Source: a virus
IMG/VR virus record: IMGVR_UViG_3300042691_036497
Coordinates: 1-31,679 of that record
Length of the DNA: 31,679 nt
Strand: one strand, 5' to 3'
A program made the position numbers and the translations under genes. Shown here in pieces: positions 4,567 through 23,937 of this stretch. The notes below the pieces were generated by a model. That model did not search any database, was not told the DNA's origin, and saw nothing but the letters and a program-made list of their open reading frames with translations. Numbering within the stretch: the first letter of the stretch is position 1; each line of letters begins with the position of its first letter.

Positions 4567-4890
4567 TCACCCCAGACTCAGCTCCTCCTGCGTCTCCGTC
4601 CCAAAGGCTGCCTCCTGCCGCCGCGCATGCTCCTGGCGGGCCTCGGCACCGCTCAGGGCCTCGTAGGTGCCCTCGTGGCCCTCGCGGTCCAGGCAGCGCA
4701 CGAAGCCGAGCTGGAAAAGCTCAGTCAGGCGAGGGCGCACACTCAGCACCTCCCAGCCCATCGCGTCCGCCAGTTGGCGCGTGGTCGAGGCCCCATAGCG
4801 GCGGAGGGCATCAAGGACGGTGAGACGGTTGCCGGTGACCTTGGCTTGGAGATCCTGGAAGGTGGCGTTTCGATGGTCGATGGGTTGCAT
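4567..4890 (-). CDS. Winged-helix DNA-binding protein
   Basis: 107 aa. Residues about 20-70 form a clear winged helix-turn-helix pattern: TGNRLTVLDALRRYG, then STTRQLADAMG, then a recognition helix around VRPRLTELFQLGFV and a wing ending GTYEALS. This resembles MarR/ArsR-type small regulators common in phages. The 30-residue tail is Glu/Gln/Arg-rich. It is expected to act as a transcription regulator; operator and target are not visible. It is flanked on both sides by repeat linkers, with the TTTTCAG array immediately upstream of its ATG. Confidence 0.75.
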   Translation of the reverse strand: MQPIDHRNATFQDLQAKVTGNRLTVLDALRRYGASTTRQLADAMGWEVLSVRPRLTELFQLGFVRCLDREGHEGTYEALSGAEARQEHARRQEAAFGTETQEELSLG

Positions 4891-4895
4891 GACAA

Positions 4896-4930
4896 TTTTC
4901 AGTTTTCAGTTTCCAATTCTCAGTTTTCAG
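4896..4930. repeat. Heptamer array TTTTCAG (5 units)
   Basis: Five contiguous 7-mers: TTTTCAG, TTTTCAG, TTTCCAA, TTCTCAG, TTTTCAG. Read on the minus strand it lies just upstream of the wHTH ATG at 4890, and its fourth unit contains the TGA stop (4920-4922) of the upstream Cys-rich gene. Four units in the same order (TTTTCAG, TTTCCAA, TTCTCAG, TTTTCAG) recur at 6975-7002, so the array itself, not only the unit, is shared between two junctions. Confidence 0.88.
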
Positions 4931-5162
4931 TCCCGCCAAAGGTGTTCTCCGGCATCGGAACCTCCGCCCCTAGGTGGGCGGGCCGCTCCAGCAGGTTCAG
5001 GGTTTGAAAGGTCCCCGCGCCGCTCTGGAGCTGGTAAAGCGCCCCACAGCATTCCGTGCGGAATTGAAGGGCATGGCCCGTCGTCACAAAGTCCGGCCAC
5101 CACTGGCCGCACACGCACTGCACCCCACGGAGGATGCCGCGATGACAAAGGAACTCGCTCAT
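4920..5162 (-). CDS. Small Cys-rich protein, possible zinc binding
   Basis: 80 aa from the ATG at 5162. Five cysteines lie in the first half, in the pattern C-H near residue 6, CVCG near residue 17, and CC near residue 38; a zinc-binding fold is plausible but no family is recognised. The start overlaps the stop of the upstream 44-aa gene as TGATG, a typical coupling arrangement. The stop codon falls inside the TTTTCAG heptamer array. Confidence 0.65.
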   Translation of the reverse strand: MSEFLCHRGILRGVQCVCGQWWPDFVTTGHALQFRTECCGALYQLQSGAGTFQTLNLLERPAHLGAEVPMPENTFGGTEN

Positions 5163-5296
5163 CACTTCGCGTCTCCTTTCTCTTTCGGCGACTCCACGGG
5201 AGCGGCAGGTTTCATAAAGGGCACCGGAGCCGCCTTGGCCCGGCGGGCCAGCGAGCGGAGGCGCTTGATTTGAGCAAGTCGAGTGGGTGAAATCAT
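5162..5296 (-). CDS. Very small basic protein, translationally coupled
   Basis: 44 aa, starting MISPTRLAQIKRLRSLARRA. It is strongly basic in the first half with an amphipathic Arg/Leu helix, then Pro-rich and Lys-rich. Its ATG overlaps the stop of the preceding 224-aa gene (ATGA at 5293-5296) and its TGA overlaps the next ATG (TGATG at 5160-5164), so it is tightly packed at both ends. That packing is the main argument that it is real. Function unknown; a small nucleic-acid-binding peptide is possible. Confidence 0.6.
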   Translation of the reverse strand: MISPTRLAQIKRLRSLARRAKAAPVPFMKPAAPVESPKEKGDAK

Positions 5297-5967
5297 AGTC
5301 TCAAAGTCTCCTGGTCTGATTGTCTAGCCTTCGCCTTCTCCTGCCTCGCCGCCCGCTTCCGCTTGAAGCGGTTCGCGGCCTTCCCCCGTCCGGCGGCGGC
5401 GTTCGCGTTGTTGCGGAGGGTGAAAACCACGCTCCAGACCTGCTTCGCGTTCAGGTCCCGGAGGTGCGTGCCTTTGTAAAAGCGGCTGGCGATGGTCTGC
5501 GCCGCCTGCCAGCCCTGCCGCGTCTGCGACAGGTGCGTGCGCAGCGCATGGCGGGCGATCTCCAGGGCGGCCACTTCCGCCTTCTTCCGTGCCGCGGCAG
5601 CGGCGGCATGCTTCCGTTGGAGATCAAGGAAGTGGGCCTTGATAAGCTGGTAATGCCTCACACAGGCCTCCGAGATCGTGGGGCCGCCCGTGGCCTTCCG
5701 TGTCTCCGCCTGGCGCCAGGTCTCGAAGCAGGTGCCTTCCTCCAGGTCTCCCGCCTCGATCATCAGCCTCAGCGCCGCCTTCGCCACCTTCACGAGCTGC
5801 CACTTCGCCTCATTGTCCAGCGGGCGGGAGAGCCCCCGCTCGCTCGCCGGGTCAATCCGGTCAGCCTTGTCAATCCGGTCCGCCTCCGCCGCCGCCGCCA
5901 AGGGCGTGGCGTAGCTCGTCACCTGGGCGGTGGCGGCAGCGTGGGCGTCTGGATCGAAGGGGAGCAT
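5293..5967 (-). CDS. Unknown phage early protein with helical basic C-terminus
   Basis: 224 aa, Ala/Arg/Lys-rich and largely helical. No catalytic motif is seen. The N-terminal region contains RIDKADRID, encoded by in-frame GTCANNNNG 9-mers (5851-5886). The middle (about 110-150) is a long Ala/Lys/Arg helix, possibly coiled coil. The segment LNAKQVWSVVFTLRNNA (about 175-191) precedes a basic tail ending KARQSDQETLRL. Its place among early genes, between Gam-side genes and small coupled proteins, is where some Mu relatives carry gp16/GemA, but GemA landmarks are not visible. The ATG follows a pyrimidine-rich GTCTCCCC-type linker on its own strand. Confidence 0.68.
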   Translation of the reverse strand: MLPFDPDAHAAATAQVTSYATPLAAAAEADRIDKADRIDPASERGLSRPLDNEAKWQLVKVAKAALRLMIEAGDLEEGTCFETWRQAETRKATGGPTISEACVRHYQLIKAHFLDLQRKHAAAAAARKKAEVAALEIARHALRTHLSQTRQGWQAAQTIASRFYKGTHLRDLNAKQVWSVVFTLRNNANAAAGRGKAANRFKRKRAARQEKAKARQSDQETLRL

Positions 5968-6454: not shown

Positions 6455-6964
6455 TCATGCCTTTGGGCTCCCTTCCATGTCGAGTTCGATGAAGAAGTCC
6501 TCGCTGGTCGTCATCTTCACGCCAGCGGCCACCAGAAAGACTTCGTGATCCTTCCAGTGCTTCTTCATGGCCTCCTTGTCCGGGGCCTCTTTGGTGCGGA
6601 TGAAAAGCTCCTGGAGCTTCTTCGAGGCCTCCTTGAGCTTGGCGAGAACGCCCTTGGCACCGCCGGCCTTCTTGGTGAACTCGATGGCTCCGCCGTTGCT
6701 GCGGTAGCCCAGGACATGGCCTTCGAGCGTGAAGCTCTTGGTCTTGCCTTTGAGCAGGTCCTTCCGGCGGGCATCCAGCCAGTCCCGGATCTGCTCCGCC
6801 AGCTCTTTCTCCTTGGCGGCATGCTTCGTGATCTCCGGCTCATGCCGGTCCTTCACCTTTGCCAGCTCGGCATTCAGCTCGGCGGTCAGGGATTGCTGGA
6901 GCGTCCGCTCCCGGCGCATGCAGGCCAGGGCGGCGGTAACTTGGTCGAGGGATTCGAGTTTCAT
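6455..6964 (-). CDS. gam: Gam-like host-nuclease inhibitor
   Basis: 169 aa. It matches the Mu Gam family, which binds DNA ends and shields linear phage DNA from host exonucleases. Visible landmarks: a long N-terminal coiled-coil (about 1-55, including LNAELAKVKDRHEPEITKHA), the transition IRDWLDARRKDLLKGKTKSF (about 58-77) followed by the GHVLGYR strand, and a C-terminal 'AAGVKMTTSEDFFIEL' ending typical of the family. Length is close to Mu Gam. It sits between the MarR-like gene and small early genes, downstream of the MuB-like ATPase, as expected for a Mu early operon. Confidence 0.88.
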   Translation of the reverse strand: MKLESLDQVTAALACMRRERTLQQSLTAELNAELAKVKDRHEPEITKHAAKEKELAEQIRDWLDARRKDLLKGKTKSFTLEGHVLGYRSNGGAIEFTKKAGGAKGVLAKLKEASKKLQELFIRTKEAPDKEAMKKHWKDHEVFLVAAGVKMTTSEDFFIELDMEGSPKA

Positions 6965-6974
6965 GGGTATTCAA

Positions 6975-7002
6975 TTTTCAGTTTCCAATTCTCAGTTTTC
7001 AG
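6975..7002. repeat. Heptamer array TTTTCAG (4 units)
   Basis: Units TTTTCAG, TTTCCAA, TTCTCAG, TTTTCAG, the same order as in the array at 4903-4930. It fills the MarR-like/Gam junction and carries the TGA stop of the MarR-like gene (6999-7001). Two junctions sharing the same multi-unit array suggests copying of whole arrays rather than independent slippage. Confidence 0.88.
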
Positions 7003-7475
7003 TTCCGCCCCCGCAGGAGCACACTCGACGCCCCCGCCAGCCCCGTCAGCGCCACCAGCGACGCCAGGACCTTCGTCCCCGGCTCCGTGATGGTGACATG
7101 CACCCGCCGCAGATCCGGCCCTTGGCGGTCACAGGCCACCAAGCCCAGCGACTCCATCCGCCGCGTGATGAGCGAGCAGTTCGGTTGCGTCACTTTCAGC
7201 GCATCGGCCACGCGGGCCATGGTCAGCGTGCCATGCCGTGCCAGGACGATGAGCAGCAGCGCGGACCGCTTGGAGAGTTTCAGCCGGCATAACGTTTCCA
7301 GGCAGCCCTGGACGGCGTGGAAGGTCTCGCTGGCCGTGTCGAGGCCCGCCGTCGTGGCCGTGGCCGCCAGCGCCAGGTGCGGGTAGTCCGAGAGCTTCGG
7401 AGCCGCCTCCGAGGAGGAGGCCTTGGCGCGGAGGCTGCGAAGCAGCGGAGAGGTAGGAGAAGGGATGAAAGGCAT
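6999..7475 (-). CDS. MarR-type winged-helix regulator
   Basis: 158 aa. The core (about 65-140) reads as a MarR-like fold: LSKRSALLLIVLARHGTLTM, then ARVADALKVTQPNCSLITRR with recognition helix, then MESLGLVAC, and a wing DLRRVHVTITEPGTKVL. A helix of about 20 residues precedes it. The C-terminus is hydrophobic (LASLVALTGLAGASSVLL), possibly a dimerisation helix. It probably regulates phage early transcription; the operator is not identified. It lies between the MuB-like ATPase and Gam, with 9-nt repeats upstream of the ATG and heptamers at its stop. Confidence 0.75.
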   Translation of the reverse strand: MPFIPSPTSPLLRSLRAKASSSEAAPKLSDYPHLALAATATTAGLDTASETFHAVQGCLETLCRLKLSKRSALLLIVLARHGTLTMARVADALKVTQPNCSLITRRMESLGLVACDRQGPDLRRVHVTITEPGTKVLASLVALTGLAGASSVLLRGRN

Positions 7476-7521: not shown

Positions 7522-8559
7522 TCACGCCGCCAGCCGCAGCGTCTTCGCCCGCGCCCTCAGCTCCAGCTTGGCCTGGTGCGTGAGGCTTTCCGCCGTGGGG
7601 GCTTCCTTGGCCTTCGTGGCGGCCTTGGCGGTGCGGATGATGGTCTCCCGGACGAAGGCCAGGTTGCCGTGGTTGAGCGCCATCTCCGCCAGTTGGCGGG
7701 CCGTGGTGCCCAGGTCCTTGGCAGGCAGGTCCAGCGCCGGGAGGCGACGCTTCAGCAGCAAGGCCACGTCCTCGGCATTCAGCGTGCCCAGCTCGATCCG
7801 AGCCAGCAAACGGTTCCCGGTGAGCTGGGAGAGGTCGTCCCAGTTGTCCCGCTCCAGATCGCGGAAGAGGCGGGGATGACAAAGCATGATGATCTTTACC
7901 GGGCTCTCATTGAGCAGGGTCTTCACCACGCGGAGGCAGCGGACCCCGAAATCATGGACCTCATCCAGGATGAAGATGATGGGCCGCTCATTGAGGACCG
8001 TGGTCAGCAGGTCCAGGCGGGCGGCCTGGCTCCGGCCCGTGGCCTCGCGGCCCAGCGCCCGGAGCATGGCTGTCAGCATCGCGTTCGGGCGATCTCCCCA
8101 CCCGGCGCTGGCCTCGATGGTGAAGACCTGGGGCATGGCCGCCATGGCGTTGTAGGATTTAGCCACGATTTGGCCAGCCGAGGTTTTGCCCGAACCGGTG
8201 AAGCCCTCCACGATGATGAGCTTTGCCTTCGTGCGGCTCAGCTTCAGGCGCACCATTTGCGCCCGAACGGCCTTGGTCGTCGAAAGGTCGTCATAGAGCG
8301 GGTCCTCATCGCTGGCCGCCGCTTCGAGGCCGTCGAGGGCTCCGCGATAGGCCGCATGCAGGGCGGCCAGATCTCCGAGGCTGGCAAAGTCGCCACTTCG
8401 GATGCGGTCAAAGGTCCGGTCTGATTTGAGGGCCGGGATCTGGCGGAGCAGCTCCGCCTTTGTCCAGCCCTCCGCCTCCGCGTGTTCCGCGAGAAGGTGG
8501 GCCGCTTCCTGAAGCTCACGCTCCAGGGCTTCGTTGTTGGTCGTGGGTGTCGTTTGCAT
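7522..8559 (-). CDS. MuB-like AAA+ ATPase (transposition target activator)
   Basis: 345 aa. Residues about 30-60 contain a small helix-turn-helix-like region (GWTKAELLRQIPALKSDRTF), as in the MuB N-terminus. Walker A is EGFTGSGKT (118-126) and Walker B is IIFILDE (194-200) followed by VHD. The likely role is ATP-dependent DNA binding, target capture and activation of the transposase; in Mu, MuB also gives target immunity. Length is near that of MuB (312 aa) and of the Tn7 TnsC-type group. It lies downstream of the transposase in the same operon, separated by three small genes instead of being adjacent. Confidence 0.88.
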   Translation of the reverse strand: MQTTPTTNNEALERELQEAAHLLAEHAEAEGWTKAELLRQIPALKSDRTFDRIRSGDFASLGDLAALHAAYRGALDGLEAAASDEDPLYDDLSTTKAVRAQMVRLKLSRTKAKLIIVEGFTGSGKTSAGQIVAKSYNAMAAMPQVFTIEASAGWGDRPNAMLTAMLRALGREATGRSQAARLDLLTTVLNERPIIFILDEVHDFGVRCLRVVKTLLNESPVKIIMLCHPRLFRDLERDNWDDLSQLTGNRLLARIELGTLNAEDVALLLKRRLPALDLPAKDLGTTARQLAEMALNHGNLAFVRETIIRTAKAATKAKEAPTAESLTHQAKLELRARAKTLRLAA

Positions 8560-9655: not shown

Positions 9656-11620
9656 TCACAAAGCCATCGCCGCGGCCTCCTCCGCCTCGTCGAACTCCTC
9701 GACGAAGACGGCAGGCACCGCCCGGCGGGCAGGCATCGAAAGGGGCTCCGGCTCCGGGCTTGAAACTTGAAACCTGGAACCTGAAACTTGCCCGGAGGGC
9801 ATGACTCGGCCTTCCGAGGGCATCACGCTCCGCTCCGGCGGCGGCTCCGCCGTGTGGATCTCGGGGCGCGGGGCATTCGCCGCCGCAAAGGCATTGCCAA
9901 AACCATCCTGCGCATGGGAGCGGCGACGACCGTCAAAGGCCGTCCCCGCGATGATGGCGCGGAACTCCTGGCGGACCTGCGCAGCGGCGCGGGCCTGCCC
10001 TGGCGCATAGCCACGGGCGGAAAGGTCTTCTTGCGGCGCATCGGCCATGTGATCGGCCACGCCCATTCGTTGGAGGAAGCCCCAGCCATCGCGATTGCGG
10101 GCACTGCGGTCCCGGTTGAAGATCGTGCATCCGGCCCAGGCCTCGCTAGGGTCAAAGGCCACCATGACCTGGTGCCCATCCACGAACTGCGCCCCGGCCA
10201 TGCGACTGGCTCCATGCAGGCGGAAGCGGAACGAAACCGGGTAGTGGTTCACCTTCACCTCGACACAACCCTTGCGGATCGTGGCGGGCACCTTCACCGG
10301 CAGGAAGCGCCAGCGTTCATTCTGCGGGCAGGGGCGTTTGACATGCTGCGCCCACAGCTCCGCCGGGGAGAAGGTCTTGTTGCCAAACGTCTGCCGCTTC
10401 TTCGGGCGCTCGTCGAACAGCCGCATGGCGTTCAGGACGTGGTCCGCGCTTTGCTCGATGGTCCAAAACTTCGCCAGGGCCGCCGCGTCCCGATCACTGC
10501 GGAGCATGGCTCGCGTGGCGGCCTCAAACTCGCCGCGCTCGCGGCCGATGCTCATTGTGCGACCGTCCCCACCGTGGTCCATGAGGCTCTGGAGCAGGTT
10601 GAAGGCTCCCTCGATTTCCTTGCCACGGCTGGAGAACTTGACCGCAATTTTGACCACGGCATCCAGCCCGCCAAAGCGGACGGCATTCCCCTCGTCATCG
10701 AACTCGCCGGGGATGGGTGAACCAAAGATGAAGTTGTTGTCCCACCGACCGCGTTCAATGCGCCAGATGAGCGGCAGGCCATGCTCGTCCACGAGAGCGG
10801 CAAAATGCTTCGCGATGTCCTCGGCGCGGTAGCTGTCCCGGTCCCGGCCAATGTGGCTGGCTCCCAGGAAATGCAGGGAGAAGGCATCCGTCGTGAAAAG
10901 CGCCTGACGTCCCAGCAATTCCTTCTCCGAGGCCGCATCGTAGAACCGGAACGGATCATTGAGGCTCATGTCATCGCTACACCAGATGGCACCCGCGAAC
11001 CACGGCAGGCGCTGGCCGTCCTCGTCGATGATGAAGGCTCCCTTGCGCTCCGTGCCGCCGCGATTTTGCAGCGCCTTCGGACCCCGGAAGGCAGCCTCTT
11101 CGTCCTCGGACACCCGGCAGGCACGTTGGATGCTCTGCGGCCAGGTCACCGGCTTCCGGGCCTCGACGAATTTCCGCCAGTAGGCCTTCAGGGCGGCAGC
11201 CTTCGCGGCATCCAGCTTCGCGTTGCCCTCGACGGAACGGCGGGCCTTCACCGCCGTTTCGTCCAGGACATCACAAGCCAGGCTTGCCCGCAGCGCCGCG
11301 AAGTAGGGCTCCTCATTGCCATCCAGCGCCTCGGCAATCGCTGCCTCGACCGCCAGCGGGATCGAGCCCTTCACCAGCCGCCAGAAGCGGAGGCGGCGCG
11401 TCTCCGCCTCGCTCAGGTCAAAGAGCACCTTCCGGCCCCGTTTGGGGGCCTGGCTCAGATCCGGCAGGAAACCGCTCTTCGACTCCTCCACCTGGCGCTG
11501 CCAGCGGTAAAAGGTCGGAAACGGAATGCCCACCTCCGCACAGGCCCGGCGCGTCGGCATCTCCGCCGAAAGCGCCGCCACCTGGGCGAGGAGCATGGAA
11601 CGATCTGCAAGGGTGAACAT
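9656..11620 (-). CDS. MuA-like DDE transposase
   Basis: 654 aa, similar in length to MuA (663 aa). It catalyses phage integration and replicative transposition. An N-terminal helix-turn-helix is visible (TRRACAEVGIPFPTFYRWQR, about 23-42). The rve-type catalytic core starts at IWCSDDMSLND (first Asp 216/217), followed by a strand FTTDAFSLHFLG, then GLPLIWRIERGRWDNN (281-296), then RGKEIEGAFNLLQ (332-344, Glu 335/337). The expected Asp of the 'DxG' motif after strand 4 is Glu289 here, giving D-E-E; D294 lies nearby. A beta-barrel-like domain follows (about 440-510). The C-terminus is low-complexity and contains GQVSGSRFQVSS, encoded by a heptamer array at 9762-9789. No Shine-Dalgarno precedes the ATG. 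Confidence 0.9.
   Translation of the reverse strand: MFTLADRSMLLAQVAALSAEMPTRRACAEVGIPFPTFYRWQRQVEESKSGFLPDLSQAPKRGRKVLFDLSEAETRRLRFWRLVKGSIPLAVEAAIAEALDGNEEPYFAALRASLACDVLDETAVKARRSVEGNAKLDAAKAAALKAYWRKFVEARKPVTWPQSIQRACRVSEDEEAAFRGPKALQNRGGTERKGAFIIDEDGQRLPWFAGAIWCSDDMSLNDPFRFYDAASEKELLGRQALFTTDAFSLHFLGASHIGRDRDSYRAEDIAKHFAALVDEHGLPLIWRIERGRWDNNFIFGSPIPGEFDDEGNAVRFGGLDAVVKIAVKFSSRGKEIEGAFNLLQSLMDHGGDGRTMSIGRERGEFEAATRAMLRSDRDAAALAKFWTIEQSADHVLNAMRLFDERPKKRQTFGNKTFSPAELWAQHVKRPCPQNERWRFLPVKVPATIRKGCVEVKVNHYPVSFRFRLHGASRMAGAQFVDGHQVMVAFDPSEAWAGCTIFNRDRSARNRDGWGFLQRMGVADHMADAPQEDLSARGYAPGQARAAAQVRQEFRAIIAGTAFDGRRRSHAQDGFGNAFAAANAPRPEIHTAEPPPERSVMPSEGRVMPSGQVSGSRFQVSSPEPEPLSMPARRAVPAVFVEEFDEAEEAAAMAL
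9762..9789. repeat. Heptamer array GAAACYT inside the transposase C-terminus
   Basis: Units GAAACTT, GAAACCT, GGAACCT, GAAACTT; 28 nt read in frame as part of the transposase tail. The unit is the complement of the GTTTCAR heptamer found at intergenic junctions (4527, 8580, 20111). Confidence 0.8.
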
Positions 11621-12234: not shown

Positions 12235-12260
12235 AAGGTCAGAAGTCAGAGGTGAGAGGT

Positions 12261-13298
12261 TCAGCTCCACGTGGCCGGTTCATCCGCCGCCGCCAGCGCC
12301 TCGGCCAAAGCCAGGCGAAACTCCGGCGTCATGTCCGCCTTCACGCGGGCGGTCAGCAGGCGCTGGGCCTTGAGCCGCTCCTCGGCGTCCCAGCTCGTGA
12401 AGGCCTTAGAAAGGCGGACGAGCTGGCTCAGGGGAGCGTCGAGGTGGTGGAAGCCCGTCTGGGCCTTCGGCTTGCCACCCGTGGCGTCACCCCCGGCGAT
12501 GCCCGCCAGGATGCCGCCCAGGCCCGCCCCGCCCCAGATGAGGTGTTCATACTTCTCCCGCTTCGCGGCGGCCTCGATGGCCTCCGGGCTGCTCGCCGCA
12601 TGGCCGGGGGCATAAAAGGCCCGGTAAAGGGCCACCGCTTGATCCACCGTGTCAGCCGAAACGCCCAAGCGACGCCCCAAAGTCGATGCGTTCAAAACTC
12701 CGATTGAATCGGAGTTTTTGGAAGGGCGTCCTTCACCTGCCTCGCAAACCTGCGGATGCTGGCACACGCCCAGCCACGCCCGCTGCCCCTTGGTCCAGTG
12801 ACGACGACCGATCACGCTGGCCTCAATGATCTGCATGGCCTCGGCTTCCGAGACCTCAATGAGCGGCACCTTCTGACCTCTGACTTCTGACTTCTGACCT
12901 CTGGCCTCTGCATTGTCATCCACCCACTCCAGCCGGTGCCTGCCATCCACCGCCACCCAGCGGCGGCCTTGGCGGAAGGCCTTGATCGGCTCCACAATAC
13001 CCAGATCATCCAGGCTGCTCCGCAGGGCATCGTGCTCCGCCATCATCTCCACGCCCTGCGCCTTGATCTCCGGCTTCGGGCTCGTGATGAACTTCGCCGC
13101 CACGTCCACCATCATCGGAACGATGGCGAGACGTGGATCAATGGTAATCAGCTCACGGCGCACCAGATGCACCGTCATCGTGCCCTTGCTCGCCCGATGC
13201 TGGGAGGCCTCGTGAACCTGAAAGGGATCGTTAAGGTGCATGTCGTCCGTGCGCCAGATGGCGTCCTTCCGGTCAGTGAGGTCAGTCCGGTCACTCAT
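12261..13298 (-). CDS. ParB-like nuclease-fold DNA-binding protein
   Basis: 345 aa. The central part is ParB/Srx-like: ALRSSLDDLGIVEPIKAF (about 90-107), RRWVAVDGRHRLEWV (about 111-125), and VPLIEVSEAEAMQIIEASV (about 144-162), with a downstream HTH around ASTLGRRLGVSADTVDQAVAL. The role is probably site-specific DNA binding, in regulation, partition or transposition. The N-terminus is odd: MSDRTDLTDRKD is encoded by GTCANNNNG repeats, and AIWRTDDMHLNDPF (13-26) closely matches the transposase active-site segment AIWCSDDMSLNDPF. Two further repeats are embedded in frame: a TTCTGAC array (EARGQKSEVRGQK) and a 23-nt palindrome (KNSDSIGVLN). Its ATG overlaps the upstream stop (ATGA). Confidence 0.78.
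   Translation of the reverse strand: MSDRTDLTDRKDAIWRTDDMHLNDPFQVHEASQHRASKGTMTVHLVRRELITIDPRLAIVPMMVDVAAKFITSPKPEIKAQGVEMMAEHDALRSSLDDLGIVEPIKAFRQGRRWVAVDGRHRLEWVDDNAEARGQKSEVRGQKVPLIEVSEAEAMQIIEASVIGRRHWTKGQRAWLGVCQHPQVCEAGEGRPSKNSDSIGVLNASTLGRRLGVSADTVDQAVALYRAFYAPGHAASSPEAIEAAAKREKYEHLIWGGAGLGGILAGIAGGDATGGKPKAQTGFHHLDAPLSQLVRLSKAFTSWDAEERLKAQRLLTARVKADMTPEFRLALAEALAAADEPATWS
12694..12718. repeat. 23-nt palindrome, copy 1 (inside ParB-like gene)
   Basis: Left arm AAACTCCGATT, single G centre, right arm AATCGGAGTTT, a perfect inverted repeat at 12695-12717 that extends by one A/T pair on each side. It lies within the ParB-like coding region, where it reads in frame. The same sequence occurs at 14096-14118 and, with two changes, at 14638-14660. 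Candidate protein-binding site (parS-like) or mobile palindrome. Confidence 0.8.
12871..12911. repeat. Heptamer array YTCTGAC inside the ParB-like gene
   Basis: Units TTCTGAC, CTCTGAC, TTCTGAC, TTCTGAC, CTCTGGC, and a partial sixth. On the minus strand it reads in frame as Gly-Gln-Lys-Ser-Glu-Val-Arg-type residues, inserted between the RRWVAVDGRHRLEWV and VPLIEVSEAEAM segments of the ParB fold. The same unit family occurs at 19295 and 23889. Confidence 0.8.
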
Positions 13299-13501
13299 GC
13301 GGTCACCTCCTGCGCGTTCAGCTTTGTCTGGAGGTGGCGAATGCGGGCAGTGGCTTCGACGATCACATCACGCCCCGCCTCCACTTGGGATGAGACGAAA
13401 CTGAGCAGGTAGCCCAGCTTGAAAGCGGGCTCGTCAATGCGAGAGTCTTGAGCCTCCAAGTCGAGGAGGAGGGTGAGCAAGGCCTTGGTGTCGATGGGCA
13501 T
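13295..13501 (-). CDS. Small helical protein, unknown
   Basis: 68 aa. Mostly helical (LLTLLLDLEAQ; RDVIVEATARIRHLQTKLNA), acidic N-terminal half and basic C-terminal half. Its stop overlaps the ParB-like ATG by 4 nt (ATGA), so the two are probably co-translated and may interact. No family recognised. Confidence 0.62.
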   Translation of the reverse strand: MPIDTKALLTLLLDLEAQDSRIDEPAFKLGYLLSFVSSQVEAGRDVIVEATARIRHLQTKLNAQEVTA

Positions 13502-13528: not shown

Positions 13529-13714
13529 TCAGGCGGCCAAAGCTGCCGTGGCGAGATCCGCCCGAATGAGGCGGCGGACGTATTTGCTGAAGTCGAGGTC
13601 CTCGGACTTCACGCGGCTCTGCGCATGGTCCCAGAGCGTGCTCTCGATGCGGACGGCCTTCACGAGGCAGCCTTTGGCGCGGTGTTTATGGGGTTTGGTT
13701 TTGGCGCGGTTCAT
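13529..13714 (-). CDS. Ribbon-helix-helix protein, left partner of divergent pair
   Basis: 61 aa from the ATG at 13714. A basic N-terminal arm is followed by an RHH pattern: beta strand VKAVRIES (about 20-27), helix LWDHAQSRVKSED, turn and second helix LDFSKYVRRLIRADLA (about 42-57). It is related to the divergently transcribed RHH protein at 13857: the second helix shares 10 of 16 positions (L.FS.YV..LIRAD). It is the first gene of the leftward early block and faces an AT-rich spacer with repeated operator-like sites. A role as repressor or Cro/Ner-like switch protein is inferred. Confidence 0.72.
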   Translation of the reverse strand: MNRAKTKPHKHRAKGCLVKAVRIESTLWDHAQSRVKSEDLDFSKYVRRLIRADLATAALAA

Positions 13715-13734
13715 TGGGGTGGGGTGTCGTATTC

Positions 13735-13847
13735 TGTTATACAGCATATAATCGGTTTATACACCCGCAAGCCCAAAGTGTATAAATTTTGGCGACACCT
13801 TCACGCACTCATCTTTCCGCTTGCGCCTGTGCTAATGGTTTATACAC
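13735..13847. promoter_or_regulatory. AT-rich divergent control region with three TTTATACAC sites
   Basis: The spacer between the two RHH genes is markedly AT-rich in a GC-rich window. TTTATACAC occurs at 13756-13764 (plus), 13778-13786 (as its complement GTGTATAAA) and 13839-13847 (plus); a degenerate GTTATACAG lies at 13735-13743. The first two are inverted with 13 nt between them; the first and third are preceded by GG. A TATAAT at 13747-13752 could be a -10 element for the rightward gene. The third site ends 9 nt before the rightward ATG, well placed to block expression. Likely operator/promoter region of the lysogeny switch. Confidence 0.7.
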
Positions 13848-13856
13848 TGCTTGCCC

Positions 13857-14108
13857 ATGGCAAAGCGCCGCCCAGCAGCCCTCTCAATCCGGCCCGAAGA
13901 ATACGAAGCCGCCAAGGCCCGTGCCGATGGCCTGGGTCTGAACTTCTCCGCGTATGTGAACAGCCTCATTCGGGCGGACATGAGACTCCGCGCTCCCATC
14001 ACGCTCCAGGAGACGCCCGCCCCTTCCACGCTGCCACCCATCCCGCCGCGCCAAGCCGTTACCTACGACAAGCCCAAGCGCCGCTCTTCTTCCAAAAACT
14101 CCGATTGA
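13857..14108 (+). CDS. Ribbon-helix-helix protein, right partner of divergent pair
   Basis: 83 aa from the ATG at 13857. RHH pattern near the N-terminus: strand RPAALSIRPE (about 4-13), helix YEAAKARADGLG, second helix LNFSAYVNSLIRADM (about 28-42), then a Pro-rich, basic tail ending RRSSSKNSD. The second helix is closely related to that of the divergent protein at 13529. Its TGA stop lies at the centre of a 23-nt palindrome (14096-14118). It is the first gene of the rightward block. A DNA-binding switch protein is inferred; no antitoxin partner gene is adjacent. Confidence 0.72.
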   Translation: MAKRRPAALSIRPEEYEAAKARADGLGLNFSAYVNSLIRADMRLRAPITLQETPAPSTLPPIPPRQAVTYDKPKRRSSSKNSD

Positions 14109-14118
14109 ATCGGAGTTT
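14096..14118. repeat. 23-nt palindrome, copy 2
   Basis: Identical to copy 1 (arms AAACTCCGATT / AATCGGAGTTT, centre G). It contains the stop codon of the rightward RHH gene in its centre and encodes the KNSD end of that protein. If transcribed it could fold into a 10-bp stem with a 3-nt loop, so termination is an alternative to protein binding. Confidence 0.8.
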
Positions 14119-14133
14119 CCGGCCTTCGACGCC

Positions 14134-14526
14134 ATGAGATCGCTCCTCCACCTCCTCCGCGCCGCCATCACGTCCTTCGTGCAAGGCTTCGTTTGGATCA
14201 TCGCGGCAGGCCTGGGCTTTCTCTGCCTCGTCGGCTTTTTCATCGAGCAAGGGCGCATCAAACGGGAGGCCGACGAAGCGGCCAAGGCCGCCGCCATCCA
14301 AGCCAAGGAGAATCCGCCACCCACCGAAGAGGACCAGGTCCGCGCCTTTGCTCTTTGGGGCCTGACGCTGGCGGAAGTGGAGCGGCAGCACGGCAAGGCC
14401 CTGACGAAGCACAGTTCCACCGGCTGGGCCTTCTGGCCCCGCTTCAAGGCCCACTTCATCAACGGCCGCGTCGATGAATACGGCCCCTGGACGCCTGTCA
14501 CCGCGCCGAAGCAGGAAGCTCATTGA
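14134..14526 (+). CDS. Membrane-anchored protein, unknown
   Basis: 130 aa. One strong membrane segment (about 17-37: QGFVWIIAAGLGFLCLVGFF) follows a short basic N-terminus. A charged linker rich in Ala/Lys/Glu follows, then a soluble C-terminal domain with ALWGLTLAEVERQHGKALT and WAFWPRFKAHFINGRVDEYG. No family recognised. It lies right after the rightward RHH gene and before the late genes, a typical place for lysogenic-conversion or superinfection-exclusion proteins, but this is context only. A hairpin immediately follows its stop. Confidence 0.65.
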   Translation: MRSLLHLLRAAITSFVQGFVWIIAAGLGFLCLVGFFIEQGRIKREADEAAKAAAIQAKENPPPTEEDQVRAFALWGLTLAEVERQHGKALTKHSSTGWAFWPRFKAHFINGRVDEYGPWTPVTAPKQEAH

Positions 14527-14637: not shown

Positions 14638-14660
14638 AAACACCGATTGAATCGGCGTTT
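14638..14660. repeat. 23-nt palindrome, copy 3 (variant)
   Basis: Arms AAACACCGATT / AATCGGCGTTT around a G centre: same as copies 1 and 2 except one base in each arm, leaving one A/C mismatch in the stem. It lies in the 191-nt spacer upstream of the protease gene, next to the CTAGCGT element. Confidence 0.75.
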
Positions 14661-14717: not shown

Positions 14718-15872
14718 ATGCCACAACCGGCCCCCCGCAAGCTGCCCACTTCCCTCTCCCTCCTCTGCCTCAGCGCCGGGGCGGTGGATCGTGCCAGTGG
14801 CGAGCTCCCGGAGCGGCTCCTCATTCTCCCCTGGGGCCAGCATGATCTGGGCAAGCGCGGCACCGCGCTTTGTAATGACTTCACCGTCGCTCTCTTTGCG
14901 GACGCGATGAAGGCCCTGAAGCTCAATGGCCCCGTGGCCCTCGACTTCAACCACAACAGCCTCCCTGGCCATGCCGCCTACCTGGCCGAAAAGGAACCCC
15001 GCCGGAAGGCCGCCTGGGGCACGCCCCTCGTCGTCCCTGGCGAGGGCATCTATTTGACCGCCCTCACCTGGACCCCCGAAGGCCGGGACGCCTTCCTCGG
15101 CGGCCACTTCCAGGACATTAGCCCCGTCATCTTCCGGGACAAGGCAAACCACGTCATCGCCATCCATTCGGCGGCTCTCTGCGATCACGGCGAGGTCGAT
15201 GGCCTCACCATCGAGGCCGCCACCGCCCCGCCCGAACTCCAGTCCGCCTTCGCCGCCCTCTCCAGTCTCCCCGTCTCCCCGTCTCAAAGTCTCCCAGTCT
15301 CAAAGTCTCCCAGTCTCCCTGTCTCCCCGTCTCCCACCACCCCACCCATGAAACCCGAAATCCTCGCGGCCCTGGCCGCTCTCCTCAAAGGCATGGACAT
15401 CGAACTGGCCGCCGAGCCGGACGATACCATGCTCGCCGATGCCCTCACCGCTGCCGCTGGCAAGCTGGACGACATGAAGGCCAAGCTCACCGCCGCCGCC
15501 GCCCCTCCTGAAAAGAAGGAAGAGGTCAAGCCGGATGCCCTCTCCGCCCAGATCACTGATCTGCAAACTCAGCTCGCCACGATCCGCGCCGAGAAAGACC
15601 AGGCTCGCCGCGATGCCCTCATGGCCGAGGCCATCCGCGATGGCAAGATCATCCCCCTCAGCTCCGACCTCTGGAACAAGGCCCCCGTCGATGTCTGTGA
15701 AGGCCTCGTCAAAGCCGCCAAGGCCGGCGAGGTGCCCCTCAAGAGCAAGATGCCCGAAGGCGAGCAAACCGAGGCCAAGCCCCTCGCCCTCTCCGCCGAG
15801 GTGATGAGCAACATGGGCCTCACTGCCGAAGACCTCGCCAAATACGGCCCCAAGGACGCCTCCGCCGCCTGA
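14718..15872 (+). CDS. Mu gpI-like prohead protease with fused scaffold
   Basis: 384 aa. Residues 1-180 resemble the Mu gpI protease: VALDFNHNSLPG (about 74-85), a segment GTPLVVPGEGIYLTALTWTP (about 99-118), then FQDISPVIF, and ending with AIHSAALCDHGEVDGLTIEA. This enzyme cleaves scaffold and head proteins during capsid maturation. Residues about 183-211 are a Ser/Pro linker encoded by nine GTCTCCNN octamers (15265-15336); because 3 x 8 nt is 8 codons it reads as an 8-residue period (SLPVSPSQ, SLPVSKSP, SLPVSPSP). The remainder is a helical, charged scaffold domain with its own internal ATG, as in Mu I/Z. No Shine-Dalgarno precedes the ATG. Confidence 0.85.
   Translation: MPQPAPRKLPTSLSLLCLSAGAVDRASGELPERLLILPWGQHDLGKRGTALCNDFTVALFADAMKALKLNGPVALDFNHNSLPGHAAYLAEKEPRRKAAWGTPLVVPGEGIYLTALTWTPEGRDAFLGGHFQDISPVIFRDKANHVIAIHSAALCDHGEVDGLTIEAATAPPELQSAFAALSSLPVSPSQSLPVSKSPSLPVSPSPTTPPMKPEILAALAALLKGMDIELAAEPDDTMLADALTAAAGKLDDMKAKLTAAAAPPEKKEEVKPDALSAQITDLQTQLATIRAEKDQARRDALMAEAIRDGKIIPLSSDLWNKAPVDVCEGLVKAAKAGEVPLKSKMPEGEQTEAKPLALSAEVMSNMGLTAEDLAKYGPKDASAA
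15265..15336. repeat. Octamer array GTCTCCNN, 9 units, inside protease/scaffold gene
   Basis: Nine contiguous 8-mers (last two bases CC, AA, CA, AA, CA, CT, CC, CA and so on). It reads in frame through the protease-scaffold linker and ends 11 nt before the internal scaffold ATG at 15348, the same position relative to a start codon as in the intergenic copies. Confidence 0.9.
15348..15872 (+). CDS. Nested scaffold protein (Mu Z-like) from internal start
   Basis: 174 aa starting MKPEILAALAALLKGMDIEL, same frame and stop as the protease. Composition is helical and charged with a coiled-coil-like middle (LSAQITDLQTQLATIRAEKD) and a short C-terminal capsid-binding-like helix. In Mu the scaffold Z is made from an internal start in gene I. 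Here the internal ATG is preceded by an octamer array just like separate genes in this window, which supports independent translation. Confidence 0.65.
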   Translation: MKPEILAALAALLKGMDIELAAEPDDTMLADALTAAAGKLDDMKAKLTAAAAPPEKKEEVKPDALSAQITDLQTQLATIRAEKDQARRDALMAEAIRDGKIIPLSSDLWNKAPVDVCEGLVKAAKAGEVPLKSKMPEGEQTEAKPLALSAEVMSNMGLTAEDLAKYGPKDASAA

Positions 15873-19184: not shown

Positions 19185-20077
19185 AAACGCTCCTTTTCCT
19201 CCTCGCTTCGCTCGTCGCACAGCCGCAGAGCCTCAGAGCTTCAGAGCCTCAAAGCCTCAGAGCTTCAGATCCGCAGAGCCGCAGAGTCTCTGTCCTCTGC
19301 CCCCTGACATCTGACCTCTGCCCTCTGACCTCTGCTCTCTGCCCTCTGACCTCTGCCATGGACTCCGCCACCATTCTCCAGGCCGTGGAGGACTACCTCC
19401 AGCCCCTCCTCGCCGCTGAAAAAGGCCTCCTCACCGTGGCCGAGACCGAGGAGGACGCCATCGAACTCCTCGCCAATGGCCCCGAGAAATGGCGCGTCAT
19501 CCTCACCATGGACGGAGACGAATCCGCCGAGGAAAACAACCCCGCCGGTCTCGTCAAAGGCACCCTCGTCGCCTGGGTGCAAGCTCCCAAAGGCATGGAG
19601 GCCAAGCCAGGCAAAGGCATCCACCGCAGCGGCACCAACGGCAGCCCCAGCTTCATGACCCGCCTCCACTGGGTCATTCGCAAGCTCCGCCTCATGCAGC
19701 TCGTCCACGTCGAGGTGGCCTGCCAGGGCCTCGAATACAAAGGCTGGAACTGGCTCAAATTTGAAGACACCGCCGCCTTCCGCACCGCCCGCGCCCGCTT
19801 CGAGGTCCTCTTCGCCCACGACGATCCCGCCACCGATCCCGATGGCACCGACCCCATCGTCCTCCCCTCCGCCTTCCGCATCACCGGGGCCGCTGCCGAG
19901 TTCTACACCATCAGCCTCAGCGGCACCGCCCACGGCCGCGTCCCCCGCTTCGAGCCTGGCCCCGATGACCCCACCGGCACCGCCACCGGCTACGCCCTCA
20001 CCTCCGCCCAGGCCGAGTTCTACACCGTCGCCTTCGACGGCCAGCCCCACGGCCGCATCCCCCGCTTCGAGGCCTAA
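19181..20077 (+). CDS. Mu gp37-like tail completion protein with repeat-encoded leader
   Basis: 298 aa from the ATG overlapping the gp36-like stop; a shorter form would start at 19358 (239 aa, MDSATILQAVEDYLQPLLAA). The core (about 60-210) fits a gp37/minor tail type protein by position and length. The first 14 residues (MKTLLFLLASLVAQ) look like a signal peptide; residues 15-58 are encoded by an octamer array then a heptamer array. In the heptamer array the in-frame units (1st, 4th, 7th) all read TGC, never TGA, although most other units are TGA, which hints that the long frame is kept open. The C-terminus carries a duplicated segment: AEFYTISLSGTAHGRVPRFE and AEFYTVAFDGQPHGRIPRFE. Confidence 0.62.
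   Translation: MKTLLFLLASLVAQPQSLRASEPQSLRASDPQSRRVSVLCPLTSDLCPLTSALCPLTSAMDSATILQAVEDYLQPLLAAEKGLLTVAETEEDAIELLANGPEKWRVILTMDGDESAEENNPAGLVKGTLVAWVQAPKGMEAKPGKGIHRSGTNGSPSFMTRLHWVIRKLRLMQLVHVEVACQGLEYKGWNWLKFEDTAAFRTARARFEVLFAHDDPATDPDGTDPIVLPSAFRITGAAAEFYTISLSGTAHGRVPRFEPGPDDPTGTATGYALTSAQAEFYTVAFDGQPHGRIPRFEA
19218..19357. repeat. Octamer array AGAGCCTC followed by heptamer array CCTCTGM
   Basis: About eight 8-mers (AGAGCCTC, AGAGCTTC, AAAGCCTC, AGATCCGC and similar, roughly 19218-19286), then about nine 7-mers (CCTCTGC/CCTCTGA type, 19295-19357). The second array ends exactly at the alternative ATG (19358). Two unrelated unit families of different period are joined in one linker. Confidence 0.85.
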
Positions 20078-23012: not shown

Positions 23013-23834
23013 ATGCAACCGACCCCTCCCAACCTCCCTCCCATCACCGAGCGGGAGATTAGCTTCCACGAGGCCCTCGCCGGCATCGACGCCCGCGAGA
23101 AAGCCCAGGTCTCCGGCGGCCCCCGCCACGCCCTCCGCGCCCTCGTCCACGCGGCGGAAACGTTCAACGTTGAACGTTCAACGTTGAACGTTCAAAGTTC
23201 AACGTTGAAGGGCCTCCCCCTTCGCTCGGACGACCTCCTCGTCACCCTCTGCCTCGGCCTCCATGCCGAGGCCTTCGGCACCGATCCCCGCGCCGAATGG
23301 GCACACGAAAGCACCGCCACCCGCATGCGGGCCATCGCCGCCCTGGCCTTCCTCTTCACCACCCCCGGCCGCGCCTACACCCTCCTCGATGCCGCCACCG
23401 ATCCCGCCGCCTCCGAGGAGCAGCGCCAGGCCGCCCGCCGCGCCTATCGAAATGAGGTCACCGCCTTCGCCGCCGACTTCGGCCCGGGCGAGATCGAAAC
23501 CCTCACCCGCCATCTCCTCAAGCTGGCGGGCTTCCACCCCCAGGCGGATGCTGAGGAGGCCGCCTCCCCCGCCGCGGGGGAGCCTCTCCCTCCTTCGCCC
23601 CCGGCGCGGAGCTGGTGGCGGGGCCTGGTCCAGCGTGTGGCTGGGTCTTGGCTTATGTCGAGACGCTGGCATCGGAATACCAGCTCCCCCTCGCCAGCAT
23701 CTTCCGCCTGCCCTTCGCCGCCGGTCTCGCCCTCCTCGAAGCCCGCGCCTGCCGCCTCCACCCCGGCCACGGCCTCAGCTACATCGACCGCGCCATCGTT
23801 TCCGCCCGCAACGCCACCCGCCGCCGCCTCCTGA
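23013..23834 (+). CDS. Tail assembly chaperone, frame-0 product
   Basis: 273 aa in the starting frame (MQPTPPNLPPITEREISFHE). The first 190 residues look like real protein: LLVTLCLGLHAEAFG, RMRAIAALAFLFTTPGRAYT, ETLTRHLLKLAGF. After about residue 190 this frame becomes Ser/Pro-rich and non-protein-like, while the -1 frame becomes protein-like. It lies between a tube-like gene and the tape measure, the usual place of the lambda G/GT or Mu gp41-type chaperones that use -1 frameshifting. A GTTSAAC heptamer array (23162-23210) is read in frame as FNVERSTLNVQSSTLKG. If no frameshift occurs in vivo, the long frame-0 tail is simply translated. Confidence 0.65.
   Translation: MQPTPPNLPPITEREISFHEALAGIDAREKAQVSGGPRHALRALVHAAETFNVERSTLNVQSSTLKGLPLRSDDLLVTLCLGLHAEAFGTDPRAEWAHESTATRMRAIAALAFLFTTPGRAYTLLDAATDPAASEEQRQAARRAYRNEVTAFAADFGPGEIETLTRHLLKLAGFHPQADAEEAASPAAGEPLPPSPPARSWWRGLVQRVAGSWLMSRRWHRNTSSPSPASSACPSPPVSPSSKPAPAASTPATASATSTAPSFPPATPPAAAS
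23162..23210. repeat. Heptamer array GTTSAAC, 7 units, in coding sequence
   Basis: GTTCAAC, GTTGAAC alternating, with GTTCAAA and GTTGAAG variants. Units are near-complementary to each other, so the array can fold on itself. It lies inside the chaperone gene and keeps the frame on both sides. Confidence 0.92.
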
Positions 23835-23890
23835 CCACCCACCGCCTCGTGACCGCAGAGCCTCAGCGCCGCAGAGGTCAGAGCCTCTGA
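23555..23890 (+). other. -1 frame extension of the tail chaperone
   Basis: The -1 frame is open from 23555 (after a TGA at 23552) to 23890. From about 23615 it reads WVLAYVETLASEYQLPLASI, FRLPFAAGLALLEARACRL, LSYIDRAIVSARNATRRR, clearly protein-like. The window for the shift is 23555 to about 23620; a run of five G at 23576-23580 (codons GCG GGG GAG) is the best slippage candidate, though not a classic X-XXY-YYZ heptamer. Product would be about 290 aa. An authentic frameshift mutation or sequencing error would look the same. It stops in the first unit region of the next heptamer array. Confidence 0.6.
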
Positions 23891-23937
23891 CCTCTGACTT
23901 CTGACCTCTGACTTCTGACTTCTGACCTCTGACCTCC
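23889..23937. repeat. Heptamer array GACYTCT, 7 units
   Basis: GACCTCT, GACTTCT, GACCTCT, GACTTCT, GACTTCT, GACCTCT, GACCTCC, ending exactly at the tape measure ATG (23938). TGA occurs once per 7 nt, so the array closes all three frames; it supplies the stop of the -1 chaperone frame at 23888-23890. Confidence 0.92.

Follow-up and report, generated by a model that had tools for sequence, protein, structure and literature searches.

Textbook phage switches use helix-turn-helix (HTH) repressors, and the transposable phage Mu is under master repressor control through c and Ner. What, then, could serve as the switch in a transposable phage in which no such gene is found at the expected place? The stretch of DNA analysed here, referred to as the window, is a linear IMG/VR record of 31,679 nucleotides (IMGVR_UViG_3300042691_036497) from a virus known from sequence alone. 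A Mu-like gene set was found in it (transposase, MuB, Gam, MuF, gpG-type and Mu-I genes), and the virus is by its sequence a Mu-like transposable phage; PF07352, PF04233 and PF05069 were matched (the Gam, MuF and gpG-type genes), as was PF10123 (Mu-I), with the protease starting at 14718 and running rightward. The ParB-like early protein is itself without a family match in Pfam or PHROGs, and its relative in one related phage, G004, gives a ParB_N match under the cut-off (E 0.0018). The leftward early genes begin at about 13.7 kb, and the Rz-like gene, the protease and others go rightward. At this early/late divide lie two small ribbon-helix-helix (RHH) genes, here called rhhM and rhhP, with 142 nt between them; the spacer has a GC content of 47%, as against 65.5% for the whole record.

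The two RHH proteins and the spacer between them

Coordinates of the features discussed are collected in Table 1.

Table 1. Features of the window and of the loci compared with it; positions without a locus handle are those of the window.
Feature	Position	Strand or direction	Remarks
rhhM	13529..13714	-	short RHH protein, 61 aa, basic N-terminal extension; first leftward early gene
rhhP	13857..14108	+	RHH protein, 83 aa, C-terminal tail
Weak candidate operator W0, GTTATACAG	13736..13744	+	2 mismatches; core TTATACA kept
Candidate operator W1, TTTATACAC	13756..13764	+	- strand gives TATAAA, possible rhhM -10
Candidate operator W2, TTTATACAC	13778..13786	-	+ strand gives TATAAA, possible rhhP -10
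Candidate operator W3, TTTATACAC	13839..13847	+	9 nt ahead of the rhhP start codon
Possible rhhM promoter	13756..13784	-	9/12: -35 TATACA 13784-13779 (W2), 17 nt, -10 TATAAA 13761-13756 (W1)
Possible rhhP promoter	13758..13786	+	9/12: -35 TATACA (W1), 17 nt, -10 TATAAA (W2)
Putative alternative rightward promoter	13724..13752	+	9/12: GTGTCG, 17 nt, TATAAT
ParB-like early protein	12261..13298	-	relatives in G003, G004
Transposase	9656..11620	-	downstream on leftward side; phrog_310, E 1.3e-11
MuB-type transposition protein	7522..8559	-	phrog_296, E 6.3e-20
MarR-like gene	6999-7475		far downstream of the switch locus
Gam	6455-6964	leftward	
Winged-helix-like gene	4567-4890	leftward	far downstream of the switch locus
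Weakly Rz-like gene	14134-14526	rightward	phrog_1026, E 0.0068
G001 pair	L004 798-1028, 1125-1319	-, +	integrases present
G002 pair	L012 5569-5814, 5989-6231	-, +	spacer holds TTTATACGT and TTTATACAC
G005 pair	L028 3702-3995, 4078-4272	-, +	second passes RHH_1
G003 HTH_3+S24 gene	L005 6494-7510		Mu-I side
G003 small HTH-like gene	L005 7447-7674		transposase side; no Pfam pass; HTH_3 E 0.037
G004 HTH_3+S24 gene	L006 7993-8937		Mu-I side
G004 small HTH-like gene	L006 7732-7929		transposase side; HTH_23 over Pfam cut-off

The original prediction took the two proteins to be related from the likeness of their second helices (LDFSKYVRRLIRADLA and LNFSAYVNSLIRADMR), and on checking, 10 of the 16 residues are identical; the two profiles are also homologous to one another (hhalign probability 97.4%, E 1e-11). 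Models of moderate confidence (mean pLDDT 71 and 74) contain the two RHH helices in both proteins, at residues 25-38 and 42-60 of rhhM and 13-26 and 30-44 of rhhP, with the N-terminal strand unformed in these monomer models. Foldseek returned no significant match for either model. In a further structural comparison RHH proteins headed both lists (best Z 5.3 for rhhM and 6.0 for rhhP), with CopASO as a neighbour of rhhM (Z 5.3, rmsd 2.4, 47 aligned) and TacA2 (Z 6.0, rmsd 3.4, 51 aligned) and Arc (Z 5.7, rmsd 2.4, 43 aligned) as neighbours of rhhP, rows that differ by less than 1 being ties. No Pfam family was found over the cut-off in rhhM or rhhP; below it, rhhP has matches to NikA-like (E 0.016) and CcdA (E 0.13) families. 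An alternative upstream ATG at 13747 would lengthen rhhM to 72 aa, and this form has a weak PHROGs match to 'Arc-like repressor' (E 0.0086); the alignments used only the form starting at 13714, whose MNRAKTK start resembles the homologue start MKTRAKTK.

It was also claimed that the AT-rich spacer contains three exact TTTATACAC sites, one degenerate site and a TATAAT. The three exact sites (W1, W2 and W3) are there, and no further site with at most one mismatch was found on either strand of the 31.7-kb window, where 0.26 would be expected by chance and none of 100 shuffles reached three. Four copies of the core 7-mer TTATACA lie in the spacer (at 13737, 13757, 13779 and 13840), and the rest of the window has none. 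The degenerate site, W0, is likewise present, but is weak by itself, sites with up to two mismatches being common: 18 in the window, six of them in the spacer (overlapping reverse readings included) and 12 outside. W2 is inverted relative to W1, and the start spacings of W0-W1 (20 nt) and W1-W2 (22 nt) each amount to about two helical turns. Of 2000 dinucleotide shuffles of the spacer, one produced a 9-mer in triplicate. As a control, 40 of 3154 same-length segments of the record hold an exclusive 7-mer at least three times, and 46 of 3154 an exclusive 9-mer. The triple repeat by itself is thus unusual, not unique, and because of the latter count the spacer repeats need comparative evidence.

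TATAAT stands at 13747-13752, as claimed, and would be the -10 hexamer of the alternative rightward promoter, of which G002 holds a similar match (GTGGCC-17-TATAAT). Both strands of the W1/W2 pair read TATACA-17-TATAAA, with 9 of 12 consensus letters, so the operators themselves may double as promoter hexamers. Two possible divergent promoters overlap here, with W1 and W2 falling on their -10 and -35 hexamers, so that a dimer bound to these sites would obstruct RNA polymerase directly. Promoter matches of 9/12 quality number three in 13700-13870, against a shuffle mean of 0.47, with 9 of 500 shuffles reaching three; a stricter scan, in which T is obligatory at the last -10 position, found none, and the G001 and G005 spacers hold no promoter-like match at 9/12.

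The pair in other phages and cI/Cro-type genes in relatives

The pair was sought in other phages, and three more records were found to carry it, two with transposases (G002 and G005) and one with integrases (G001), making four examples with the window. Loci L004 (G001) and L012 (G002) were found by RHH search, and L028 (G005) by way of the G002 transposase. At all three loci both genes are present, divergent and separated by a spacer with repeated words, rather than a single RHH gene without operator repeats. Both rhhM and rhhP have homologues in L004 and L012, and each has a like-built counterpart in L028. One of the six other pair proteins passes RHH_1 (L028 4078-4272, 20.8 bits vs 20.5), and a six-row RHH alignment gave nothing below E 0.27 against PDB sequences. 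An RHH profile built from the window, G001 and G002 pairs gives matches in these three records and none in G003, G004 or G005. The RHH domains of G005 are more divergent, and because the profile misses them the G005 pair rests on layout, on RHH_1 in one protein and on the tail motif. Two types of protein recur: the rhhM proteins begin with a basic extension and end soon past helix 2, and the rhhP proteins have a C-terminal V-x-Y-x-K-x-K tail. Of 774 ATG ORFs with 50 aa or more (in G001, G002 and the window in full, in 20 kb each of G003 and G004 and in 11.7 kb of G005), four have this motif within the last 25 residues, exactly the four rhhP proteins; the motif was derived from these four themselves, and its informative part is the absence from the 770 others.

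G002 is a transposable phage, its transposase and MuB matching phrog_310 and phrog_296. No match to the window transposase was obtained in it, and among 18 window proteins (the RHH proteins excluded) compared with G002 at E <= 1e-3, weak matches were obtained for 5293-5967 and the MuF-like protein only. The transposases of G005 and G002 are 66% identical, and in both phages the pair also sits between the transposase side and oppositely running genes. G001 has no Mu-I match. The C-terminal half of the G001 rhhM is repeated at L004 1401-1544, in the same direction and about 225 nt downstream; with DNA nearly identical by eye, this appears to be a recent partial duplication, and it was excluded from the alignments.

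All three copies of TTTATAC in the window, and both copies in G002 (a 34.5-kb record), fall within the spacer, and none of 2000 shuffles of the G002 spacer reached two copies. G005 (30.4 kb) has GTTTAAC twice, both within the spacer, and G001 (42.2 kb) an inverted ATTCAAGAA pair in the spacer only. Segments of the same length with exclusive repeats as good number 160 of 4208 in G001 (9-mers), 90 of 3429 in G002 (7-mers) and 93 of 1166 in G005 (7-mers, within its 11.7-kb locus); none of the three spacers has an exclusive repeat at the other word length (7 for G001, 9 for G002 and for G005). The repeats of these three phages are each modest alone; TTTATAC, common to the window and G002, is the strong case. 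By eye, GCAAGC/GCTTGC adjoins 3 of the 5 TTTATAC sites.

At the position aligned with Arc N11, which is taken here to be a DNA contact residue, the two paralogues of the window have Ala, as do the two of G002, and those of G001 have Ser; the repeated words are, in that order, TTTATAC, TTTATAC and ATTCAAGAA. This pattern, in a comparison of three pairs, is weakly suggestive of both paralogues of one phage reading one code, but Mnt and Arc also share Asn at the aligned position in spite of the separate operators given for them in the P22 record. The title of a reference cited in PMC3325190 states that a short N-terminal region sets Arc/Mnt specificity.

Wider searches returned no matches: none for rhhP, rhhM, the L012 rhhP, the L004 rhhM or the window transposase in 50,697 phage records; none for rhhP or rhhM in 72,556 plasmid records; none for rhhP in a first single-sequence search of viral_contigs; and none for the transposase or a two-row rhhM alignment in genome_contigs, and thus neither a host flank nor a prophage copy in those searches.

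Two other relatives are G003 and G004 (transposases 64% and 46% identical to that of the window), which have ParB-like, transposase, MuB, Gam and Mu-I genes in common with it. At the switch place of both, a gene with two HTH_3 stretches and S24 on the Mu-I side faces a small HTH-like gene, and it follows from this gene order that rhhP occupies the cI position and rhhM the Cro-like position. These switches also lie, divergent, between the early genes (ParB-like, transposase, MuB) and the Mu-I side; they differ in having an HTH protein with a self-cleaving S24 peptidase where the window has RHH proteins without peptidase. HTH_3 or S24 passes the cut-off in two of the six records, G003 and G004, exactly those without an RHH pair, and HTH_3 matches under the cut-off in G002 and G005 fall in frames of 771 and 767 codons. 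The statement that no cI-, Ner- or Cro-like HTH gene is present at this place was borne out as far as the searches went, no HTH_3 or S24 match being found in the window at E <= 0.1. The MarR-like gene (orthologue in G003) and the winged-helix gene (orthologues in G003 and G004) were considered as stand-ins for cI and rejected, as their orthologues coexist with cI in these relatives. Five relatives were found through Mu-I (L006-L010), of which L006 only was used for the switch comparison and L008, L009 and L010 were compared by tblastn only; in L007 a match to the gpG-type gene of the window sits upstream of the protease, so its switch is located elsewhere.

A probable RHH switch and its alternatives

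The recurrence of the pair and the cI/Cro-type genes at the same place in G003 and G004 both support the candidate lysogeny switch of the original prediction. The locus is probably a lysis-lysogeny switch in which two paralogous RHH regulators replace cI/Cro or c/Ner. Transcribed toward the late side, rhhP probably silences the prophage, and its assignment as the maintenance repressor, based on the cI position and on its Mnt-like length and tail, is likely, if somewhat less firm than the switch itself; rhhM, which heads the leftward early set (ParB-like, transposase, MuB), would probably be a Cro/Arc-like partner. In the prophage, rhhP would hold W1-W3, and perhaps W0, silence the leftward early promoter and adjust its own expression, and after infection or induction the early-side rhhM would shut rhhP and temper its own operon. 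The TTTATACAC sites would be read by at least one of the two proteins and perhaps by both, such that rhhM and rhhP may compete for common operators. As rhhP is without S24, induction should bypass RecA-driven self-cleavage, and the conserved rhhP tail may be what a protease or an antirepressor acts on. A repressor outside the sequences compared is possible, as the six records are all linear and their completeness is not stated.

The design had been called unusual for a Mu-type switch, and for such a switch it is, but it is not unheard of: mnt/arc of P22 immI is the classical divergent RHH pair. Its layout is like that of the window: Mnt and Arc, 39% identical, are RHH paralogues transcribed divergently, their operators lie in the 90-nt spacer, and one protein is the longer, extended at its C terminus (Mnt, 83 codons, as against 83 aa in rhhP), and the other the shorter (Arc, 53; rhhM, 61). 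The roles assigned above correspond as well, in that Mnt acts in lysogeny and Arc heads a lytic-side operon; Mnt represses arc and ant, and Arc represses mnt and moderates ant, according to the passages available of PMC7549136 and PMC11016777. There are differences, however. The P22 immI is a second region, controlling ant beside c2/cro, whereas the window pair is in the primary-switch position with no cI found; rhhM is followed by 13295-13501 (no family in Pfam or PHROGs) and then by the ParB-like gene. The P22 record gives Arc and Mnt one operator each, whereas the window repeats one word, and since the Arc and Mnt operators are separate, shared sites need not follow from a divergent layout. 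Kinship was dropped as a claim, hhalign of the shallow profiles against Mnt and Arc giving probabilities of 0.9% and 0.4% (E 0.059 and 0.15). The best reading is that the switch would work like P22 mnt/arc and stand in the place of cI/Cro, with kinship to mnt/arc not claimed. In comparison with cI/Cro itself, divergent regulators at the early/late boundary are present and no HTH repressor was found in the window. Divergent RHH genes with repeated words between them, as putative operators, are found in the window, L004, L012 and L028.

Other phages and viruses offer partial likenesses. In the sections available of PMC9608457, SSV1 F55 is described as a 55-residue RHH repressor that maintains lysogeny by binding an 11-nt site that is present several times in early promoters; it differs in belonging to an archaeal virus, in being a single RHH protein with sites over several promoters, and in that these sections describe no divergent RHH partner. 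Pf filamentous prophages have Arc/Mnt-domain proteins that are possible lysis-lysogeny regulators (PMC7549136), and the proposed repressors of phiKZ and phiEL have been likened to the RHH protein AlgZ (review, PMC3564109); as far as the excerpts of these sources extend, no transposable phage is described there with a divergent RHH pair for its main switch. The hankyphage is a transposable phage with a cI-like master repressor, RepC (PMC12135933, in part); RepC is a cI-like HTH protein encoded at one genome end, whereas the window RHH genes lie near the middle of the record. Among the literature matches listed, in the extracts covered and with subscription papers mostly outside the scope, no divergent RHH pair appears as a primary phage switch.

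A more far-reaching proposal is that the locus is a portable primary immunity module new to bacteriophages, with RHH paralogues, one operator code and mixed dimers, which swaps with cI/Cro; as a whole this is unlikely. Here rhhM would beat rhhP by taking the promoter-embedded sites and poisoning its dimers, and the module would swap with cI/Cro cassettes between transposable and integrase phages, re-code its operator while diverging (TTTATAC, GTTTAAC, ATTCAAGAA) and be induced through the V-x-Y-x-K-x-K tail, without RecA. It is rated lower because in P22 the aligned contact residue is common to Arc and Mnt, and still each of them has its own operator.

The P22 comparison also raises the possibility of a secondary immunity region like immI, in which the pair tunes an accessory operon and a conventional repressor elsewhere keeps lysogeny. 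The geometry of P22 mnt/arc is identical (two RHH genes, 83 and 53 codons long, that diverge from an intervening operator region), mnt/arc is accessory to c2/cro (PMC11016777, in part), and the window record may be incomplete. Yet the same searches that find no HTH_3 or S24 in the window, even at E 0.1, detect both in the cI-bearing relatives, the transposition gene set begins with the pair, which occupies the cI/Cro position, and the two other HTH-type genes of the window have orthologues in cI-bearing relatives, which makes this explanation rather improbable.

RHH proteins often autoregulate, and each RHH gene could be a local autoregulator unrelated to lysogeny, acting for example in early/late timing in a phage with no stable lysogeny. 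The genome_contigs searches, with neither host flank nor prophage copy, agree with this; the cI-type S24 gene at that place in G003 and G004, however, speaks for a temperate group, and transposase and MuB are present, leaving this rival improbable. That the proteins are RHH antitoxins or partition proteins (ParG/CopG/NikA-like) and no switch is involved, as the weak rhhP matches to NikA-like and CcdA, the RHH antitoxins among the structural neighbours and the ParB-like gene second after rhhM might suggest, was lowered to highly improbable, since Pfam and PHROGs gave no toxin match for the adjoining genes 13295-13501 and 14134-14526, cI-bearing, RHH-less relatives have the ParB-like gene too, and divergent RHH genes with repeated sites are not known as a usual toxin-antitoxin layout.

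If the locus is indeed a switch of two RHH regulators, an arrangement like P22 mnt/arc can be the main immunity of a phage, in the form of a very small two-protein toggle of about 600 bp. It could explain lysogeny control in temperate phages without recognisable cI- or c-like genes, and would provide a search rule, namely two small RHH genes that diverge from a spacer with repeats confined to it, the longer gene encoding a V-x-Y-x-K-x-K tail.

Palindromes and other repeats

A palindrome, AAACTCCGATTSAATCGGAGTTT, occurs in the window at 12694-12718, 14096-14118 and 14638-14660, the third copy being imperfect. Altered yet symmetric forms are present in G003 (L022 9604-9630 and 11117-11139) and G004 (L023 14371-14395 and 15541-15565), giving counts of 3, 2 and 2 in the DNA examined of the window, G003 and G004. 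One copy lies within the ParB-like gene in all three phages. The other copy in G003 and in G004 is within the cI gene, and the other copies in the window are at the rhhP stop codon and ahead of the Mu-I gene. The hairpin at 14096-14118 was considered as a plain rhhP terminator and rejected, the same palindrome also occurring inside coding sequence. By their appearance the palindromes could be sites, of the parS or KorB type, at which the ParB-like early protein acts, and this protein and its apparent sites could possibly constitute a second control layer at the switch.

Three other repeats were observed in the window. The same 29-base stretch, TTTTCAGTTTCCAATTCTCAGTTTTCAGT, occurs at 4903-4931 and 6975-7003, directly upstream of the leftward winged-helix gene and of Gam, and is possibly a promoter or operator common to middle genes. 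A 7-base tandem unit, CTGACCT/CTGACTT, is found at 2964-2975, 12238-12256, 12873-12905, 19304-19357 and 23887-23933, with 18 matches to a 12-base probe at up to one mismatch where 0.25 are expected. Finally, a nested palindromic repeat, AACGTTCAACGTTGAACGTT, is located on the rightward side at 23159-23209.
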